A stretch of 64,000 nucleotides of DNA from Steroidobacter gossypii (GTDB lineage Bacteria; Pseudomonadota; Gammaproteobacteria; Steroidobacterales; Steroidobacteraceae): the NCBI RefSeq assembly GCF_016801985.1, contig NZ_JAEVLS010000003.1, forward strand, positions 372,001 through 436,000, written 5' to 3'. The notes beneath the pieces were generated by a model. That model saw only the letters and a list, made by a program, of their open reading frames with translations. It was not told the DNA's origin and made no database searches. Shown here piece after piece: positions 5,405 to 46,081 of this stretch. A program made the position numbers and the translations under genes. Within the stretch, counting starts at the first letter, position 1. Each line of letters starts with the position of its first letter.

Positions 5405-6904
5405 ATGCTGCAAGCGTACCAGCACCTGTTTCTCGGCCACGCGCCTCGCTGGTACAAACTCGCCATCGTCGTCTTCCTCGTGCTCAATCCAGTGGTGCTG
5501 CTGCTGGGCGGAGCGCATGGCGCGACCGTGGCGGGCTGGCTGATATTGCTGGAGTTCATCTTCACGCTGGCGATGGCGTTGAAGTGTTATCCGTTGCAGC
5601 CCGGCGGCCTGCTCGCGCTGCAAGCGGTATTGCTGGGGCTGACCCAGCCCGAGTCGGTGTATCAGCACACGCTCACCGCGTTTCCCATCATCCTGCTGCT
5701 GATCTTCATGATCGCCGGCATCTTCTTTCTCAAGGAAATGCTGGTGTTTTGTTTCACCAAGCTGCTGCTGAAGGTGCGCTCGAACCTGGCGCTCGCGTTG
5801 CTGTTCTGTCTGGTGCCGGCGGTGTTGGCCGCCTTTCTCGACGCGCTCACGGTGCTGGCGGTGGTCATCGCGGTGGCGACGGGGTTCTACGAGGTTTATC
5901 ACAAGGTTGCTTCGGGCAAGACGCATCAGGATGCGCATGACAGCTCGGCCGATGAGCATGTCGGTGAGCTGCATCGTTCCGATCTCGATGCGTTTCGCGC
6001 CGTGTTGCGCGGCCTGCTGATGCATGCCGGCGCGGGAACAGTGCTCGGCGGTGTGATGACTCCGGTGGGCCAACCGCAAAATGTGCTGGTGGCGGAGCAG
6101 GCCGACTGGACCTTCATCGAGTTCTTTTTGCAAATGGCGCCGGTGGCGCTGCCGGTGTTCGTAGTCGGCATCCTGACCTGTTTCACGATCGAACGAATGA
6201 AATGGTTCGGTTACGGCGTGCGCCTGCCGGATGCGGTCCGTCAGGTGCTCGAAGCGTACGATCGCGATCAGCAGGCGCGGCGCACGCCGCGCGATGTGGC
6301 GATCATCGTCGTGCAGGCGATCACGGCGGTGATCCTGGTCTTCGCGCTTGCGTTTCACCTGGCCGAAGTAGGCTTGATCGGCTTGCTGGTGATCGTGCTG
6401 GCGACCGCATTTACGGGCGTGACCGAAGAGCAGCGCCTCGGCAAGGCCTTCGAAGCGGCGCTGCCGTTCACCGCGTTGATCGTGGTGTTCTTTGTGATCG
6501 TGGCGCAAATCCACGATCAGCATCTGTTCGAGCCGGTGGTGGGCTGGGCGCTGTATCAGCCGGGCGAGGCGCGGGCGGCCATCTTCTATCTGGCGAGCGG
6601 CCTGCTGTCCGCGGTCAGCGACAATGTTTTCGTCGCCACCATCTATATCACCGAAGTGAAGGCCGCCTTGCTGGAAGGGGCGATCGGCGCCGCCGAGTTC
6701 GGCCGGCTGGCGGTGGCCATCAACACCGGCACCAACATTCCCAGCATCGCCACACCGAACGGCCAGGCGGCGCTATTGTTCCTGCTCACCTCGGCGGTCG
6801 CGCCGTTGATCCGCCTTTCCTATGGGCGGATGGTATGGATGGCGTTGCCATACACCATCACCTTGACGCTCAGCGGACTGTGGGCGGTGCTGTACCTGCT
6901 CTGA
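5405..6904 (+). CDS. nhaB: Na+/H+ antiporter NhaB
   Basis: Inner-membrane sodium/proton antiporter of 499 aa with around a dozen hydrophobic segments. The N-terminal region (LGHAPRWYKLAIVVFLVLNP), the AALLDALTVLAVVI-like segment (AFLDALTVLAVVIAVATGFY) and the C-terminal NTGTNIPSIATPNGQAA stretch follow the NhaB family. It contributes to pH and Na+ homeostasis. It starts 15 bp after dnaQ and is probably read from the same transcript. Length matches NhaB (about 500 aa). Confidence 0.93.
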   Translation: MLQAYQHLFLGHAPRWYKLAIVVFLVLNPVVLLLGGAHGATVAGWLILLEFIFTLAMALKCYPLQPGGLLALQAVLLGLTQPESVYQHTLTAFPIILLLIFMIAGIFFLKEMLVFCFTKLLLKVRSNLALALLFCLVPAVLAAFLDALTVLAVVIAVATGFYEVYHKVASGKTHQDAHDSSADEHVGELHRSDLDAFRAVLRGLLMHAGAGTVLGGVMTPVGQPQNVLVAEQADWTFIEFFLQMAPVALPVFVVGILTCFTIERMKWFGYGVRLPDAVRQVLEAYDRDQQARRTPRDVAIIVVQAITAVILVFALAFHLAEVGLIGLLVIVLATAFTGVTEEQRLGKAFEAALPFTALIVVFFVIVAQIHDQHLFEPVVGWALYQPGEARAAIFYLASGLLSAVSDNVFVATIYITEVKAALLEGAIGAAEFGRLAVAINTGTNIPSIATPNGQAALLFLLTSAVAPLIRLSYGRMVWMALPYTITLTLSGLWAVLYLL

Positions 6905-35087: not shown

Positions 35088-36520
35088 TTCCCGTGATTCT
35101 TTCTGGCGGTTCGGGCACGCGCCTGTGGCCGCTGTCGCGCGAGCTGTATCCGAAGCAGCTGCTGCCCCTGGTCGGCAAGGGGACCATGCTGCAGGAAACG
35201 CTGGCGCGGGTCGCCGGAGTCGAAGGGCTGAGCGCGCCGGTCGTGGTGTGCAACGAGAGCCACCGCTTCCTGGTGGCCGAGCAGGTGCTTGAAGCGGGCA
35301 TCAAGCCGCAGGCCATCGTGCTCGAGCCGGTGGGCCGCAACACGGCGCCGGCGGTGGCGGTGGCTGCGATGGTCGCCGTTTCCGAGGCGCCGAATGGCGC
35401 CAAGACGCCGGAAAGCGATCCTCTGCTGTTGATCCTGCCGGCCGATCACGTCATTCGCGACGTGAAGGCGTTTCGCGCCGCTCTGGACATCGGCCGCAAA
35501 GCGGCGGCCGAGGGCAAGCTCGTCACTTTCGGCGTGGTGCCGAACAAGCCCGAGACCGGCTACGGCTACATCAAGCGGGTCAACGGGGCAGGGCCGGCGT
35601 ACGCCATCGATCGCTTCGTCGAGAAGCCCGATCTCGCCACGGCGCAGTCCTACGTGGCGTCGCAGGAATATTTCTGGAACAGCGGCATGTTCCTGTTCCG
35701 AGCCTCGACTGTTTTGAACGAGCTGCGCGAGCTGTCGCCGAAGATCTACGAAGCCTGTGCGCAGGCGGTCACGGCCGCCAAGCGCGATCTGGATTTCACG
35801 CGCCTGCCGACCAAGGAGTTCGGCGCGTGCCCGAGCGATTCGTTCGACTATGCGGTGATGGAAAAGACCAAGCACGGCGTGGTCGTGCCGCTGGATGCGG
35901 GTTGGAGCGACGTGGGCTCGTGGTCGGCGTTGCATGAGGCCATTCCGGCCGATGAGGAAGGCAATGTCACCTTGGGCGACGTGCTCACCGCCGATTCGAA
36001 CGGCAACTATCTGCACTCGACCAGTCGTCTGGTGGCGGCGGTCGGCCTGAAAGACCACGTGGTGGTTGAGACCAAGGACGCGGTGCTGGTGGCGCCCAAG
36101 AGCCGCGTGCAGGATGTGAAGGAACTGGTCAATCAGTTGAAGAAGCAGGGTCGCTACGAAACTTCCTTGCATCGGGAAGTGTTTCGGCCCTGGGGCAGTT
36201 ACGACAGCATCGATCACGGCCAGCGCTTCCAGGTGAAACGCCTGTCGGTGAAACCGGGCGCGTCCATGTCGTTGCAGCTGCATCATCACCGTGCCGAGCA
36301 CTGGATCGTGGTGTCGGGCACCGCGCGGATCACGCGGGGCGACGAGGTTTTTCTGCTGGAGGAAAATCAGTCGACCTACATTCCGCTGGGCACCAAGCAC
36401 CGCATCGAGAACCCGGGCAAGATCCCGCTGCACATCATCGAGGTGCAGTCGGGCGGCTACCTGGGTGAGGACGACATCGTGCGTTTCGAGGATCGCTACG
36501 GCCGTGAAGGCGAGAAATAG
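35081..36520 (+). CDS. manC: Mannose-1-phosphate guanylyltransferase / mannose-6-phosphate isomerase
   Basis: Bifunctional type II enzyme of 479 aa. The N-terminal nucleotidyltransferase domain has [31 protein letters not shown], and [14 protein letters not shown]. The C-terminal cupin is the isomerase ([57 protein letters not shown]). It converts fructose-6-phosphate to mannose-6-phosphate and mannose-1-phosphate to GDP-mannose, feeding both Gmd enzymes in this window. Forms a unit with ugd upstream and manB downstream. Confidence 0.95.
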
Positions 36521-41458: not shown

Positions 41459-41947
41459 CGGGGTGGCGAGTCTAGCAAAGTAGGCTAGCGCGTACAGCTG
41501 TGTAAATTCGCACGCAACGATCTCTCGGTTTTTCGGCGTGCTGCGAGTGTCAGCCGGTGCATTCGATGCAAACACGATTGCGATCGCAGGGAGTGTCGGC
41601 TGCTCGCCGCATTCTGCCGTGTGTCGCTGCACGACATTCGCTCCGGATTGAAGCGGCCAGCATCACTTCTGTGCATCCAATAAGTACGCTTTGCGATGGA
41701 TGATCGTCCGCGTCCTGCGGACAAATGCGCGACTCTCACGCGACGCGAATCAAACAAACAAATAACCTTGCTGTGACCTACTGCCACTATGCCCAAGAAT
41801 CGCGGGGCTGAGCCGATGCCATATCAATAGTGGCCGGGCTGGTGAATGCTGTGACCGAGCTTGAAGAAACAAACAAAACGCATTGCTGGCACCCATAGGT
41901 CAAACCGCCCATGCGGTTGATGGAACGTTCCTAAAGGAGAGTTAACA
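41459..41947. other. Intergenic region upstream of the transposase-like gene
   Basis: 489 bp between two genes transcribed away from each other, so it should contain both promoters. The centre is relatively AT-rich. AAACAAACAAA occurs near 41755 and again near 41870. An AAAGGAGAG ribosome site lies directly before the ATG at 41948. I see no REP-like palindrome array that a REP-associated transposase would act on. Confidence 0.5.
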
Positions 41948-42961
41948 ATGTCTTATCGCCGACGCATTCACGTTCCCGGTGGAACGTATCATGTGGTTCA
42001 GCGCGGCACCAAACAGCGGCCGATCTTCTCGCAGCCCGAAGACTACGAGCTGTTCGAGTCGGTATTGCAAGCAGCGCTGCGCAGTACCGGTGCACGGGTG
42101 CATGCCTATTGCTGGACGACGGAAGCTGTATATCTGGCCGTGCAGATCGATGAGATTTCTCTGGGGCATTTCATGCAGTGGCTGAAGAGCCGGTATGCCC
42201 GCGGCATTCAACGCCGTCTTGGCGAGCGCGGTCATCTCTTTCAGGTGCGTTACGACGCGGTGATCGTCGATCCGAAGGCGTATCTGACCAATGTCATACA
42301 TTACATTCACTACGTTCCCGTGCTGAAGGGCCTGGCGGCGACGCCGGATGAATTTCAGTACTCGAGTCATCATGCGTATGCAAACACGCGAGAAATCCCA
42401 TGGGTGCACTGTGGCACGACGCGCCGCTTGCTCGGCAAGAGAGATGAGCAGGCGCAGGCTTACCAGACGTTAATGGCGCAGGCGCCGACGGCGCAGGTGA
42501 TCAGTATGGTCGAGCGTGGCATGCCCAAGACGCCGGGCATTCTCGGCGGGCCGGAGCTGGCGGAGCTCGCCGGCCATCGCCCCAAGCGCGCAGCCCGCAT
42601 GACATCCGATCAAATCACGCGTCATGTGTGTCGCATGCTGGATGTGTCGCGTGAAGATGTGTTGTCGAAGTCGCGACTGCGGAAGCTGGCGCTTGCTCGC
42701 GCAGTCATTGCCTGGCACGCAACGGTGCGCGGCATTGCGACCCTGGCGGAGATCTCTCGATATCTCGGGCGCGTGTCTTCGACGCTGTCGAAGACCATCA
42801 CCTCGTATCGAAAGCGGCAGCCGGACCTGTTCAAGCTCGATGCGTTCACTCACTTACTGCCGCTCACGCCGTCGGGCTACGACATGACGGAGGATGAATT
42901 CGGCGAAGTCGCTCAACATACCGCGCATGCCGGCAGTCGCGACCAGGACGCCATGTATTGA
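41948..42961 (+). CDS. Y1-transposase-like (REP-associated type) protein with degenerate HUH motif
   Basis: 337-aa protein with an N-terminal Y1_Tnp domain: IHVPGGTYHVVQRG, GHLFQVRYDAVIVDPKAYL and VIHYIHYVPVLKGL (candidate catalytic Tyr119). The metal-binding NHVHL of the family is replaced by EAVYL at residues 59-63, so both histidines are lost and DNA cleavage is unlikely. The C-terminal part (about 221-288: ITRHVCRMLDVSREDVLSKSR, LALARAVIAW, TLAEISRYLGRV) resembles the DnaA C-terminal DNA-binding fold. It may be a domesticated DNA-binding protein. It is convergent with a sigma factor gene and near two others. Confidence 0.82.
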   Translation: MSYRRRIHVPGGTYHVVQRGTKQRPIFSQPEDYELFESVLQAALRSTGARVHAYCWTTEAVYLAVQIDEISLGHFMQWLKSRYARGIQRRLGERGHLFQVRYDAVIVDPKAYLTNVIHYIHYVPVLKGLAATPDEFQYSSHHAYANTREIPWVHCGTTRRLLGKRDEQAQAYQTLMAQAPTAQVISMVERGMPKTPGILGGPELAELAGHRPKRAARMTSDQITRHVCRMLDVSREDVLSKSRLRKLALARAVIAWHATVRGIATLAEISRYLGRVSSTLSKTITSYRKRQPDLFKLDAFTHLLPLTPSGYDMTEDEFGEVAQHTAHAGSRDQDAMY

Positions 42962-42979: not shown

Positions 42980-43510
42980 CTAACGCTCCCAAGTCATGGT
43001 CCGAATGCGGGCTTTGGCTTGGGTGATGTACTTCTCGACGGTGTGGATGCTGAGCCCGAGCTCCGCGGCAACCTCCTCATAAGAGAGACCGCGGTGCTTG
43101 TGCGCGAGTAGCACCATTGCCTGCGTTCGCGGGAGTCGAGCGAGCGCGCGCTCGAGTTGTTGTTGCAGATTGAGTCGTTCGGCCAGTTCGTCCGTCGTCT
43201 CCCAGCCTTCCTCTGGATTCTCTTCTTTCTCGTCTCTGAGCAGCTCGCGCTGTCGCCGCGAATCGGTGCGGTAATCGGCGACCAGGTGGGAGGCGATGCC
43301 ATATATATATGCGAGCGGCTTCTGCACGCATTTCTCGCCATCCATCCGCAGCAGCCGAAGATAGACCTCTTGCGCCAGATCCTCCGCGTCCTGCGGCCCG
43401 AGGCGGTGCGCCAAATAGCGGTGCAGGTGCTTGTCATAGTCCCGAAATGACGAGGCGCCGAAATCGAAACCGTGCCCCCGCAGGGCCAGATCACTTGCGT
43501 TCGTTGCCAT
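42980..43510 (-). CDS. ECF sigma factor (FecI-like)
   Basis: RNA polymerase sigma-70 family protein of 176 aa. Region 2: HRYLAHRLGPQDAEDLAQEVYLRLLRM and PLAYIYGIASHLVADYRTDSRR. Region 4: LARLPRTQAMVLLAHKHRGLSYEEVAAELGLSIHTVEKYITQAKARIR. No FecR anti-sigma or TonB receptor gene adjoins it. The gene is convergent with the transposase-like gene, 19 bp between stops. It faces away from the other two sigma genes at 43828 and 45470 and is only distantly similar to them. Confidence 0.9.
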   Translation of the reverse strand: MATNASDLALRGHGFDFGASSFRDYDKHLHRYLAHRLGPQDAEDLAQEVYLRLLRMDGEKCVQKPLAYIYGIASHLVADYRTDSRRQRELLRDEKEENPEEGWETTDELAERLNLQQQLERALARLPRTQAMVLLAHKHRGLSYEEVAAELGLSIHTVEKYITQAKARIRTMTWER

Positions 43511-43762
43511 TCTGCATCACCTGCGCCGAGACGCAGTGACCGCTAGCAAATCGTTGACTCGACAAAATGACGCGCGCTCCGCGCGAGCTTTGCTGCAAAG
43601 AACATTTGTATGTGAGTTGGCGACAAAGTGACAAATTCATTACCGACTTTTTGCCGTTGTTTCCGACAAGCTAATCAACACAGCTTCCTTATTGAGTGGG
43701 ACTGCATCAAACGGCAAGGACAGCCCTGCACATAAGTAAGTGAATGAACGGGGGATAGGAAA

Positions 43763-43831
43763 ATGTTACTGATCGCTGGCTTGTTGACGAATCGACTGCC
43801 CCGTGGGCGCCACATGGTGCTGCGCACGTGA
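43763..43831 (+). CDS. Possible 22-codon leader peptide overlapping a sigma factor gene
   Basis: A short frame ATG-TTA-CTG encodes MLLIAGLLTNRLPRGRHMVL plus two more residues. It has GGGGGA about 7 bp upstream and ends in a TGA that overlaps the downstream GTG start as GTGA. This suggests translational coupling to the sigma gene. The frame is too short for statistical support, so expression is unproven. Confidence 0.35.
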   Translation: MLLIAGLLTNRLPRGRHMVLRT

Positions 43832-44502
43832 GCGGCCAGGCACAACGTCGCCTCGAGGCGGAGCCCGACGCGCAGGTCACCGAGGCCACGGATGAGATTC
43901 CAATCACGGGTGAAGAGTCGTCCGCCGCGCGCATGGCCAGTCGCAACGAGCGACTGACCAAATGGTTCGAGGTCTGGCGGGGCGCGATGAAACGCTGGTT
44001 GTCGAGCCGCTCGTCGATTCAGGCGGCGGATCTCGACGACGTGGCGCAAGAGGTGTTTCTGCGCTTGTTACGCTACAGCGACGATGCGGTGGTGGAGTAT
44101 CCGCAAAGCTATCTTTTCCGGATCGCCACCAACGTCGTCAACGAATGGCGCGAGCGCGCGCGAAACAGCCTGCCGCATGACGATGTGTGGCTGGCCGACC
44201 TGCAGATCGAGCCGGATGCGGAGCCCGAGAGCTCAGTCGAGCACGACCTGGTGAATGCCTATGTGCGCCGCGCGGTCAGCCGACTGCCGCCGCGCCAGAG
44301 GCAGGTTCTGCTGCTTCATATAAGAGAGGATCTGACGTACAAGCAAATCGCCATCCAGCTCAAGTTGACTCCGCGCGTGGTGCGGCGAGATATCGCCCGC
44401 GCGTACGCGGAACTGCGATGTGACCTGAGTGCTTCCGACGTCGCGCACGGCTCACGGAAGAAGGGACGCAAACCGCCGCGCGAATCCCCGGGTGAACCGT
44501 AG
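43828..44502 (+). CDS. ECF-like sigma factor, tandem paralogue A
   Basis: 224-aa sigma-70 family protein. Region 2: IQAADLDDVAQEVFLRLLRY, EYPQSYLFRIATNVVNEWRERARN. Region 4: AVSRLPPRQRQVLLLHIREDLTYKQIAIQLKLTPRVVRRDIARAYAELR. The GTG at 43828 is the only upstream start and overlaps a short leader frame; ATG 43933 is the alternative. Strongly similar to the product of 45470 (shared WF-x-WR, RWLS-RSS, ADLD-VAQEVF, EYPQSYLF). A FecR-type gene lies 157 bp downstream, so a FecI/FecR-type cell-surface signalling origin is likely. Confidence 0.87.
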   Translation: MSGQAQRRLEAEPDAQVTEATDEIPITGEESSAARMASRNERLTKWFEVWRGAMKRWLSSRSSIQAADLDDVAQEVFLRLLRYSDDAVVEYPQSYLFRIATNVVNEWRERARNSLPHDDVWLADLQIEPDAEPESSVEHDLVNAYVRRAVSRLPPRQRQVLLLHIREDLTYKQIAIQLKLTPRVVRRDIARAYAELRCDLSASDVAHGSRKKGRKPPRESPGEP

Positions 44503-44659
44503 CAATGCGGCCCATCCGGGTCATTCAGTTTCATGGTCCGGTCTAGCAGTGCGGGGGCGGGAGATCCGAGCACCGGATTCAACACCGGATCTGACCCAAG
44601 GCCGGAACTGCTAACAAGGGCCGCGTACTCGGATCCATCGCGCATGACTAGGAAGGCGG

Positions 44660-45064
44660 ATGTCTGACCGTCCCCACAATCGAATGTCCAAAATCATCAG
44701 CGAAGAGGCCGCTGAATGGCTGGTGTGTCTCAGGGCGGGCATGACCAGCGGGGAGCGCCTGGAGTACGTGCGCTGGCTCAAGCAATCGCCCGCGCACGTG
44801 CGGGCGATGCTGGAATTGGCCTCCCTTGAGGGCCTGCTGCGAAGGTCCGATCTGGGAGACCTGCCGCCGACGGGGCCATCGGGTCCGCGGCAGTCGGATT
44901 CCACTGTCGTCGAGTTGATCCCGCGGCACGCGCGGGAAGAGTCTCCCTCCGAAGAGCGGCGTCGTTCGGCGTGGCGCCATTGGGCGTTCGCCGCGTCTAC
45001 GTGCCTGTCTCGGGTCGGCTTCGCCAGCCGCGCCTTGTCCAAGCTGGTCGGCATCTGCCCCTGA
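44660..45064 (+). CDS. Truncated FecR-type anti-sigma protein
   Basis: 134-aa protein holding only the N-terminal DUF4880 domain of FecR: SEEAAEWLVCLRAGMTSGERLEYVRWLKQSPAHVRAMLELASLEGLL (about residues 14-63, written here with the rest of the domain following). This cytoplasmic domain binds the sigma factor. Around RRRSAWRHWAFAAS, where the membrane helix should begin, the sequence diverges and stops, so the transmembrane and periplasmic domains (about 200 further residues in FecR) are absent and I do not find them in other frames. It may be a soluble anti-sigma or a decaying gene. AGGAAGG precedes the ATG. Confidence 0.75.
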   Translation: MSDRPHNRMSKIISEEAAEWLVCLRAGMTSGERLEYVRWLKQSPAHVRAMLELASLEGLLRRSDLGDLPPTGPSGPRQSDSTVVELIPRHAREESPSEERRRSAWRHWAFAASTCLSRVGFASRALSKLVGICP

Positions 45065-45218
45065 TCGCGGCCTCGTCCTTCGAGGCGCCCATTCCCATCT
45101 GAAATTTTTGAATCCGCGCATCATCGCGTCCGCGCGCAATGGTGCGTTGCGTCTGTGCCGTGTTTACGGCAACGAGCCACGCGCATGCCCGATGGCCGTC
45201 AGTAGCAGCCCTTAGCGG

Positions 45219-45257
45219 TTGACCAATGTTCATTCACAAGAGTATAACATTGAACAT
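45219..45257 (+). promoter_or_regulatory. Sigma-70-like promoter with flanking inverted repeat
   Basis: TTGACC at 45219-45224 and TATAAC at 45243-45248 are 18 nt apart. ATGTTCA at 45226-45232 and its reverse complement TGAACAT at 45251-45257 enclose the -10 region, suggesting an operator. It lies about 220 bp ahead of the GTG start of the second sigma paralogue. Confidence 0.5.
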
Positions 45258-45469
45258 CGTTCACAGGGCCGCGCGACTCGGCAAGGAGATGCGGCCGCCG
45301 CGGACGCCGGATGACCACCGGGTGACGCCGGATGATCCCGGACGACATAGAGGCCTCAAGACTGACGCCGAGATGGTCCAAGTGGCTCGACAGCGTTGCA
45401 GCGACGTCGGAGTGCAAGCTAAGGAGAGCGGCGTTCGATCTCGATGCAGCTCGCTTGAGGAGATCTAGG

Positions 45470-46081
45470 GTGGCAAGCGAATCATCGTCTTCATGCACCT
45501 CTGCGGCGCCGGTCGCATCCTTGGGTGATGTTGGAGTGGCCAACACCGCTGCCCTGCGCGGCAAGCGCCGCCTGTCCTCATGGTTCGAAACCTGGCGCGC
45601 ATCGCTGCGTCGCTGGCTGTCGGGCCGCTCGTCGGTGCCCTCGGCCGATCTGGATGCCGTGGCTCAGGAGGTGTTCGATCGCCTCACGCGCTACAGCGAC
45701 CAAACATTGGCGGAGTATCCACAGAGCTACTTGTTTCACATCGCCGCCAACGTCGTGGATGAATGGCACGAGCGGGCCGGCAACAGCCGGCCGGCCGAAG
45801 ACGCCTGGCTCAAGCTGCTGCAGCGAGAATCCGACGAGCGGGCCGCCAGTCACGTCGAGCACACGCTGGTCAACGAGCAACTCAAGGATGCAGTGAGCAA
45901 GCTGCCTTCGCGCCAGCGGGATGTGCTGATGCTGCACATCAATGAAGATCTGACCTACAAGCAGATCGCCAGTCGGCTCAAGCTCACGCCGCGCATCGTG
46001 CGGCGGGACATCGCACGAGCGTATGCTCAATTGCGTTGCGAGCTGCGCGTCGTCGAGCTCGACGTCATCTCGTCGGTCTAG
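45470..46081 (+). CDS. ECF-like sigma factor, tandem paralogue B
   Basis: 203-aa sigma-70 family protein, close paralogue of the product of 43828. Region 2: VPSADLDAVAQEVFDRLTRYSD, EYPQSYLFHIAANVVDEWHERAGN. Region 4: AVSKLPSRQRDVLMLHINEDLTYKQIASRLKLTPRIVRRDIARAYAQLR. The GTG at 45470 has GAGGAG 7 bp upstream and is preferred over a more distant ATG at 45332 whose extra residues look non-coding. No FecR or receptor gene follows; the next gene is gmd copy 2 on the same strand after 224 bp. Confidence 0.87.
   Translation: MASESSSSCTSAAPVASLGDVGVANTAALRGKRRLSSWFETWRASLRRWLSGRSSVPSADLDAVAQEVFDRLTRYSDQTLAEYPQSYLFHIAANVVDEWHERAGNSRPAEDAWLKLLQRESDERAASHVEHTLVNEQLKDAVSKLPSRQRDVLMLHINEDLTYKQIASRLKLTPRIVRRDIARAYAQLRCELRVVELDVISSV

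Follow-up and report, generated by a model that had tools for sequence, protein, structure and literature searches.

A Y1 transposase relative of Steroidobacter gossypii with an altered catalytic motif and a DnaA-type DNA-binding domain, whose position near lasso-peptide clusters in close relatives suggests recruitment as a gene switch

Subclass 2.1.2 of the TnpA_Y1 proteins combines a Y1 domain with a Bac_DnaA_C/helix-turn-helix domain and is characterized as TIRYT-like (Quentin et al. 2018, PMC6006769). In the sections of that work considered here, members were kept only when they carried both HuH and Tyr, sequences without HuH were set aside as probably non-functional, and no REPs adjoining subclass 2.1.2 were found by its authors. 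The same sections describe the Y1 domain as a dimer in active IS200 relatives and a metal-binding Asn (N119 in E. coli TnpAREP) that completes the metal site in the pattern Y---NP. Lasso-peptide clusters of proteobacteria, a second type of system relevant to this work, consist of the genes A, B, and C, together with D or an isopeptidase (PMC12670498); the words transposase, DnaA, and LuxR do not occur in the main text of that paper, nor does it mention a transposase-like regulator. RAYT does not occur in the main text of a review of recruited mobile elements (PMC8987985), and our search of open-access literature on RAYT/Y1 proteins with DnaA, lasso peptides, LuxR, or exaptation retrieved no description of the family considered below, which is weak evidence.

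The protein studied here is encoded within a 64,000-nucleotide stretch of the genome of Steroidobacter gossypii (contig NZ_JAEVLS010000003.1), called the window in this work. The features of its gene and of the adjacent DNA are as follows:

41759..41776, + strand: conserved element CAAATAACCTTGCTGTGA 5' of the gene, with a core similar to an element 5' of lasso precursor genes; the similarity is suggestive only
41820..41828, + strand: second conserved upstream element CATATCAAT, found 5' of all five orthologues
41933..41939, + strand: ribosome-binding site AAAGGAG, 8 bases 5' of the ATG, read from the sequence
41948..42961, + strand: gene of the putatively domesticated Y1-transposase/DnaA_C protein, 337 aa, stop included in the coordinates; assigned from its domains and from orthologues of 79-88% identity in four other genomes
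41981..42310, + strand: Y1_Tnp domain, residues 12-121 (Pfam PF01797, E 1.5e-9)
42122..42133, + strand: former HuH motif, now E59-A60-V61-Y62; NHxH among intact relatives
42302..42304, + strand: Tyr119, in the alignment column of the former nucleophile
42314..42316, + strand: Val123, replacing the third metal ligand (Asn) in the alignment; role of the Asn from the sections of PMC6006769 considered here
42608..42799, + strand: Bac_DnaA_C helix-turn-helix, residues 221-284 (Pfam PF08299, E 5e-8)
42980..43510, - strand: convergent ECF sigma factor gene (Pfam Sigma70_r2/r4), kept in three of four orthologous loci

An earlier note on this DNA had described an intact gene with a good ribosome site, and this description holds: the 337-aa frame runs without interruption from the ATG at 41948 to the stop ending at 42961, and a purine-rich GGA block is kept at the position of the ribosome site among orthologues. 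Both domains exceed their Pfam cut-offs (Y1_Tnp, 38.4 bits against 23; Bac_DnaA_C, 33.3 bits against 31.5), so that the DnaA C-terminal-like domain reported in that note is indeed attached. A phmmer search of PDB sequences with the window protein gave no matches, and its structure model, built from three sequences, has a mean pLDDT of 40.9 and is too poor for use.

The catalytic columns were assigned by aligning the window protein with 25 relatives that keep the His-His-Tyr-Asn set. Both HuH histidines are substituted, by A60 and Y62, and the alignment bears out the reading of NHVHL as EAVYL with Tyr119 kept. The loss of the third metal ligand, which the earlier note had missed, is seen four residues past Tyr119, where the column holds V123. 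With three of three metal ligands gone and the change fixed in the clade, the protein is probably non-catalytic, as had been proposed. The observation of a broken Y1 domain joined to a DnaA-C-type helix-turn-helix is thus confirmed, and the predicted role of the window protein in DNA binding is supported by the constraint on its DnaA_C domain and by a natural chimera, both described below.

Compared with the described systems, the window protein shares with subclass 2.1.2 the order of two domains and the Pfam pair Y1_Tnp and Bac_DnaA_C; it differs in having no HuH, no Asn, and no terminal repeats, whereas HuH and Tyr were required of the members of that subclass as defined in the sections considered here. 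The label "REP-type", used previously, is loose, the nearest described group being TnpA_Y1 subclass 2.1.2. The likeness to RAYT/TnpAREP proteins (NF047646) is limited to the Y1 fold, with a partial match over residues 4-139 that scores 49.4 bits against a cut-off of 80, and the window protein has lost the catalytic set and carries an additional DnaA_C domain; since the cut-off was missed, assignment to the canonical RAYTs was rejected. The helix-turn-helix at residues 221-284 resembles domain IV of DnaA, but the Pfam scan found no AAA+ domain in the window protein, and the DnaA equivalog model gives 27.5 bits against 343.9. From LuxR regulators it differs in having neither an autoinducer-binding nor a GerE domain in the same type of scan.

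The orthologues, which include proteins of Steroidobacter sp. MAG-237 (86% identity in the best segment) and Peristeroidobacter soli (81%), carry TEA[VI]YL and YIH[YF]VP in five of five cases, the window protein included. The fixation of the E-A-V-Y replacement, named in the earlier note as a point to verify, is thus found in 5/5 orthologues. The mean dN/dS over ten pairs from five species (Nei-Gojobori, window group) is 0.097, with 0.071 in the Y1 region (residues 1-148), 0.136 in the linker, 0.032 in the DnaA_C region (216-296), and 0.292 in the tail. These frames are intact in 5/5 species at dS values of up to about 1.5. The window-group orthologues are under purifying selection (about 0.10 for the whole protein and 0.03 for the DNA-binding domain), which agrees with the selection previously considered probable, and the low dN/dS disfavours chance decay. 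For a lasso-linked paralogue, described below, the values are 0.033 overall and 0.003 for DnaA_C.

In the neighbourhood of the gene, a GDP-mannose dehydratase is encoded downstream in all four orthologous loci, the ECF sigma neighbour was found by tblastn in three of them (L045, L046, and L047), and upstream synteny (gltX) is common to the window and its nearest relative only. As a side observation, three ECF sigma genes and a short DUF4880 ORF are clustered at 42980-46081 of the window, two of the sigma genes being clearly similar to each other. The promoter of the window gene contains two elements, both conserved in 5/5 orthologues. A core, AACCTTGCWGYG (up to one mismatch), also occurs 5' of lasA in 5/5 genomes with the linked paralogue. 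It first looked like a specific shared promoter word; however, conserved words were shared by 6 of 74 other windows too, so that the overlap is not significant and was retained as a lead only.

Searches with profiles of broken members (those with an altered motif) and of intact members found two copies in the genome of S. gossypii, neither of them intact; a PF01797 search of the same genome gave no matches and missed the window gene too, so this zero carries no weight. Of 217 Steroidobacteraceae genomes, 66 contain matches to the broken-member profile, intact matches counted too. Among the first 60 proteins aligned, the His-His-Tyr-Asn set is kept in 25 and altered in 35, and in a tree from all columns these two groups are separated by a branch with support of 100/99. 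In a tree of 97 rows calculated without the motif columns, a "quick" tree with long branches on some rows, all 43 broken Steroidobacteraceae rows lie on one side (SH-aLRT 99), with the window protein inside this group. The second tree was built without the near-duplicates L047, L049, L050, and L051, and new loci shorter than 250 aa were excluded from it; three more broken members were added outside the 43-row set. Among the 43 broken rows, a single one retains the first His, 17 retain the second, and 14 retain the Tyr, whereas the Asn is absent from all of them; the Tyr is present in 44/44 intact rows. One locus, L019, is classed as broken although both histidines are kept, having lost Tyr and Asn.

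Elsewhere among gammaproteobacterial lineages, the motif was lost or changed separately in 10 of 29 class-level loci (the best-scoring among 142 matching genomes of 369), the other 19 being intact, and in a phylum-level sample all 18 of the 18 matches examined were intact. At least six motif changes are needed to explain the 97-row tree, two or more of them being forced by starred branches. At loci L166-L172, which belong to gammaproteobacterial families other than the Steroidobacteraceae, this two-domain protein is found in separate lineages of broken or HuQ form. They are flanked by housekeeping genes (SUF, rhamnose, and pseudouridine synthase genes among the scanned neighbours), and a Pfam scan of the neighbours of L167, L168, and L170 found no lasso genes.

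The loss of the motif is accompanied by the loss of the element ends. When 300 bases upstream of each gene were compared with 300 bases downstream, a score of at least 16 being taken as a repeat, inverted repeats were found at 19 of 20 intact fusion genes (scores 16-32; shuffled maxima 8-12) and at none of the 49 broken Steroidobacteraceae genes with usable flanks, where no score exceeded 12. These 49 genes come from sets of 21, 25, and 3, with L152 and L163 excluded for short flanks. No score above 12 was obtained for eight broken genes from other families, and the best inverted repeat in the flanks of the window gene scores 7, with a shuffled maximum of 10. The coincident loss of catalysis and of the ends is the signature expected under domestication. 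Long inverted repeats were noted at the ends of the intact loci L013-L017, L039-L042, and L062-L071, many of them containing GTGCCGGG, a sequence unlike the GGGG-type consensus described for TIRYTs; this consensus, GGGGWSAS in the sections of PMC6006769 considered here, lies beside only a few of the genes studied.

The second broken copy in the S. gossypii genome (L053) is 47% identical to the window protein. Its neighbours encode a TonB receptor, Asn_synthase, Transglut_core3, and ABC transporter proteins, and a precursor-like ORF is located upstream of lasB. From the Pfam families and the gene order, we read Asn_synthase (C) as being of the lasso cyclase type and Transglut_core3 (B, the lasso-peptide protease encoded by lasB) as being of the leader-peptidase type; the locus would thus resemble described lasso clusters in having B, C, an ABC transporter, and a TonB receptor. 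In L053 (upstream of position 6359), L050, L051, L052, and L055, the predicted precursors contain T-K-Q or T-R-Q, and the predicted lasso core would begin with Gln after a conserved Thr, an unusual first ring residue.

This linkage extends well beyond one genome. In tblastn searches, lasB and lasC were found beside many broken members and beside 0/20 intact ones; lasB lies within 10 kb in 31 of the 52 broken rows and in none of the 20 intact rows (Fisher p 1.4e-6, with rows that are kin and no correction for descent). The 52 broken rows include the partial G063 and G143, whose HuH region lies outside the sequence seen, and only genes on one contig could count as linked, several of the genomes being fragmentary and the gene calls in the flanks being simple ones. 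The broken gene is positioned 5' of lasB in 31/31 linked cases, in the same orientation in 18 and in the opposite one in 13, the linked members are spread over many diverged subfamilies of the tree, and precursor-like ORFs occur 5' of lasB in most loci read. A lasB profile matched 55 of the 217 genomes. Of the resulting 86 lasB rows, 36 are accompanied by a broken gene at a distance of up to 10 kb; the 50 rows without one indicate that the broken gene is not required for lasso clusters. Conversely, 21 of the 52 broken rows, including the window group and some rows on short contigs, have no lasB within 10 kb, and no lasso genes were found in the searched flanks of the window locus and of the four orthologous loci. 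Two further observations concern the arrangement of these clusters: three more lasB loci of the S. gossypii genome (L176, L177, and L178, on C22 and C27) have the broken gene more than 10 kb away or absent, and at L091 two differing broken-HuH paralogues (G120:C70:31356-32306 and 35475-36386) are located near one lasso cluster.

In three loci, luxR and luxI adjoin the broken gene. At L059:7907-10465 and L061:9664-13197 the order is luxR, luxI, and then the broken gene, beside a lasso cluster and with PhyH in L061; at L060:6925-10895 it is luxR, luxI, PhyH, and then the broken gene, and lasso genes are absent from the searched flanks. A single genome encodes, at L082:9474-10658 (+), a 394-aa ORF which combines an autoinducer-binding domain with the DnaA_C domain of the family in place of GerE (Pfam on the last 318 residues and then on the full ORF). 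This LuxR-DnaA_C chimera points to the C-terminal part as a portable DNA-binding output domain.

We consider it probable that these proteins form a domesticated, non-catalytic Y1/DnaA_C clade turned into regulators, many of them placed by lasso clusters, and that the window protein is a member with other targets. The source would have been a mobile transposase, close to subclass 2.1.2, in which a Y1 domain was joined to a helix-turn-helix of the DnaA-C type. In a Steroidobacteraceae ancestor, the HuH-Asn site would have decayed and the terminal repeats would have been lost, both changes being visible in present-day sequences and their order being our reading, while the C-terminal DNA-binding domain remained under strong selection. 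The clade then presumably diversified into subfamilies, many of which are positioned 5' of lasso-peptide biosynthesis genes. Its members may act as cluster-linked transcription regulators, activating or repressing a nearby promoter; the DnaA-like domain would recognize a short stretch of double-stranded DNA close to the promoter of the precursor gene, and the inactive Y1 domain could serve as a dimerization and/or signal-input module. The window protein is a paralogue of the lasso-linked copy and lies outside such a cluster; since it adjoins ECF sigma and GDP-mannose genes, it would most probably control its own promoter together with further targets. A more far-reaching version, which we put forward as possible but somewhat less likely than not, is that the whole HUH (Y1) clade was exapted in Steroidobacteraceae as pathway-specific lasso-cluster regulators, connected in some genomes to acyl-homoserine-lactone quorum sensing, with the dead Y1 domain as a dimerizing sensor that is swappable for a LuxR autoinducer domain. 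The window protein would then be a free-standing offshoot tying further genes to this circuit, perhaps by way of a 12-bp operator common to its own promoter and that of the lasso precursor.

The lasso linkage could also reflect hitch-hiking: a single ancestral insertion beside a lasso cluster would have been passed on to the descendants, and the protein would serve the cell in a way that has nothing to do with the peptide. The placement of the broken clade on one side of one branch, which makes the linkage events non-independent, and the absence of linkage in the window group and others are consistent with this view. It is nevertheless unlikely, as linked members occur in many diverged subfamilies, in tandem (18) as well as divergent (13) arrangements, always on the 5' side of lasB, and some share an operon-like luxR-luxI order. 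Continued cutting and joining of single-stranded DNA by the window protein, by means of another metal site (e.g., E59) or free of metal, would fit the Tyr119 retained in the window clade, the constraint on the Y1 domain, and the HuQ forms with intact Tyr and Asn among relatives from other families (L169, L170). We give it only a small chance, because A60, Y62, and V123 are non-ligands at all three ligand columns, the Tyr, the first His, and the Asn are so poorly kept across the clade (14, 1, and 0 of 43), and the terminal repeats are gone.

Inhibition by inactive derivatives of transposases is a familiar theme, and intact relatives are present in other genomes of the family; the window protein might thus be a dominant-negative guard against a related transposase that is still active, repressing or poisoning it. 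With both matches in its own genome broken, and linkage to lasso clusters rather than to transposons, the chance of this is slight, and the proposal was set aside as no intact copy was found in that genome. The idea of a decaying transposase pseudogene without function starts from motif loss, a usual sign of decay, and from the judgement in the sections of Quentin et al. considered here that such sequences are probably non-functional. Its probability is negligible: the dN/dS of 0.097 refutes it at the sequence level, and five intact frames at these dS values and the conserved upstream elements likewise speak against it.

The position of close relatives 5' of lasso clusters suggests that a transposase has been put to use as a switch for genes. 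The use of domesticated transposases as transcription factors is well established for eukaryotes but less documented for bacteria. Here, the full path can be traced within one bacterial family, from intact genes with repeats, through broken genes without repeats, to a domain exchange with a quorum-sensing regulator. Discarding members without HuH as non-functional hides a clade that is under selection, and if these proteins are regulators, they would offer a way into the question of how lasso-peptide clusters are turned on.
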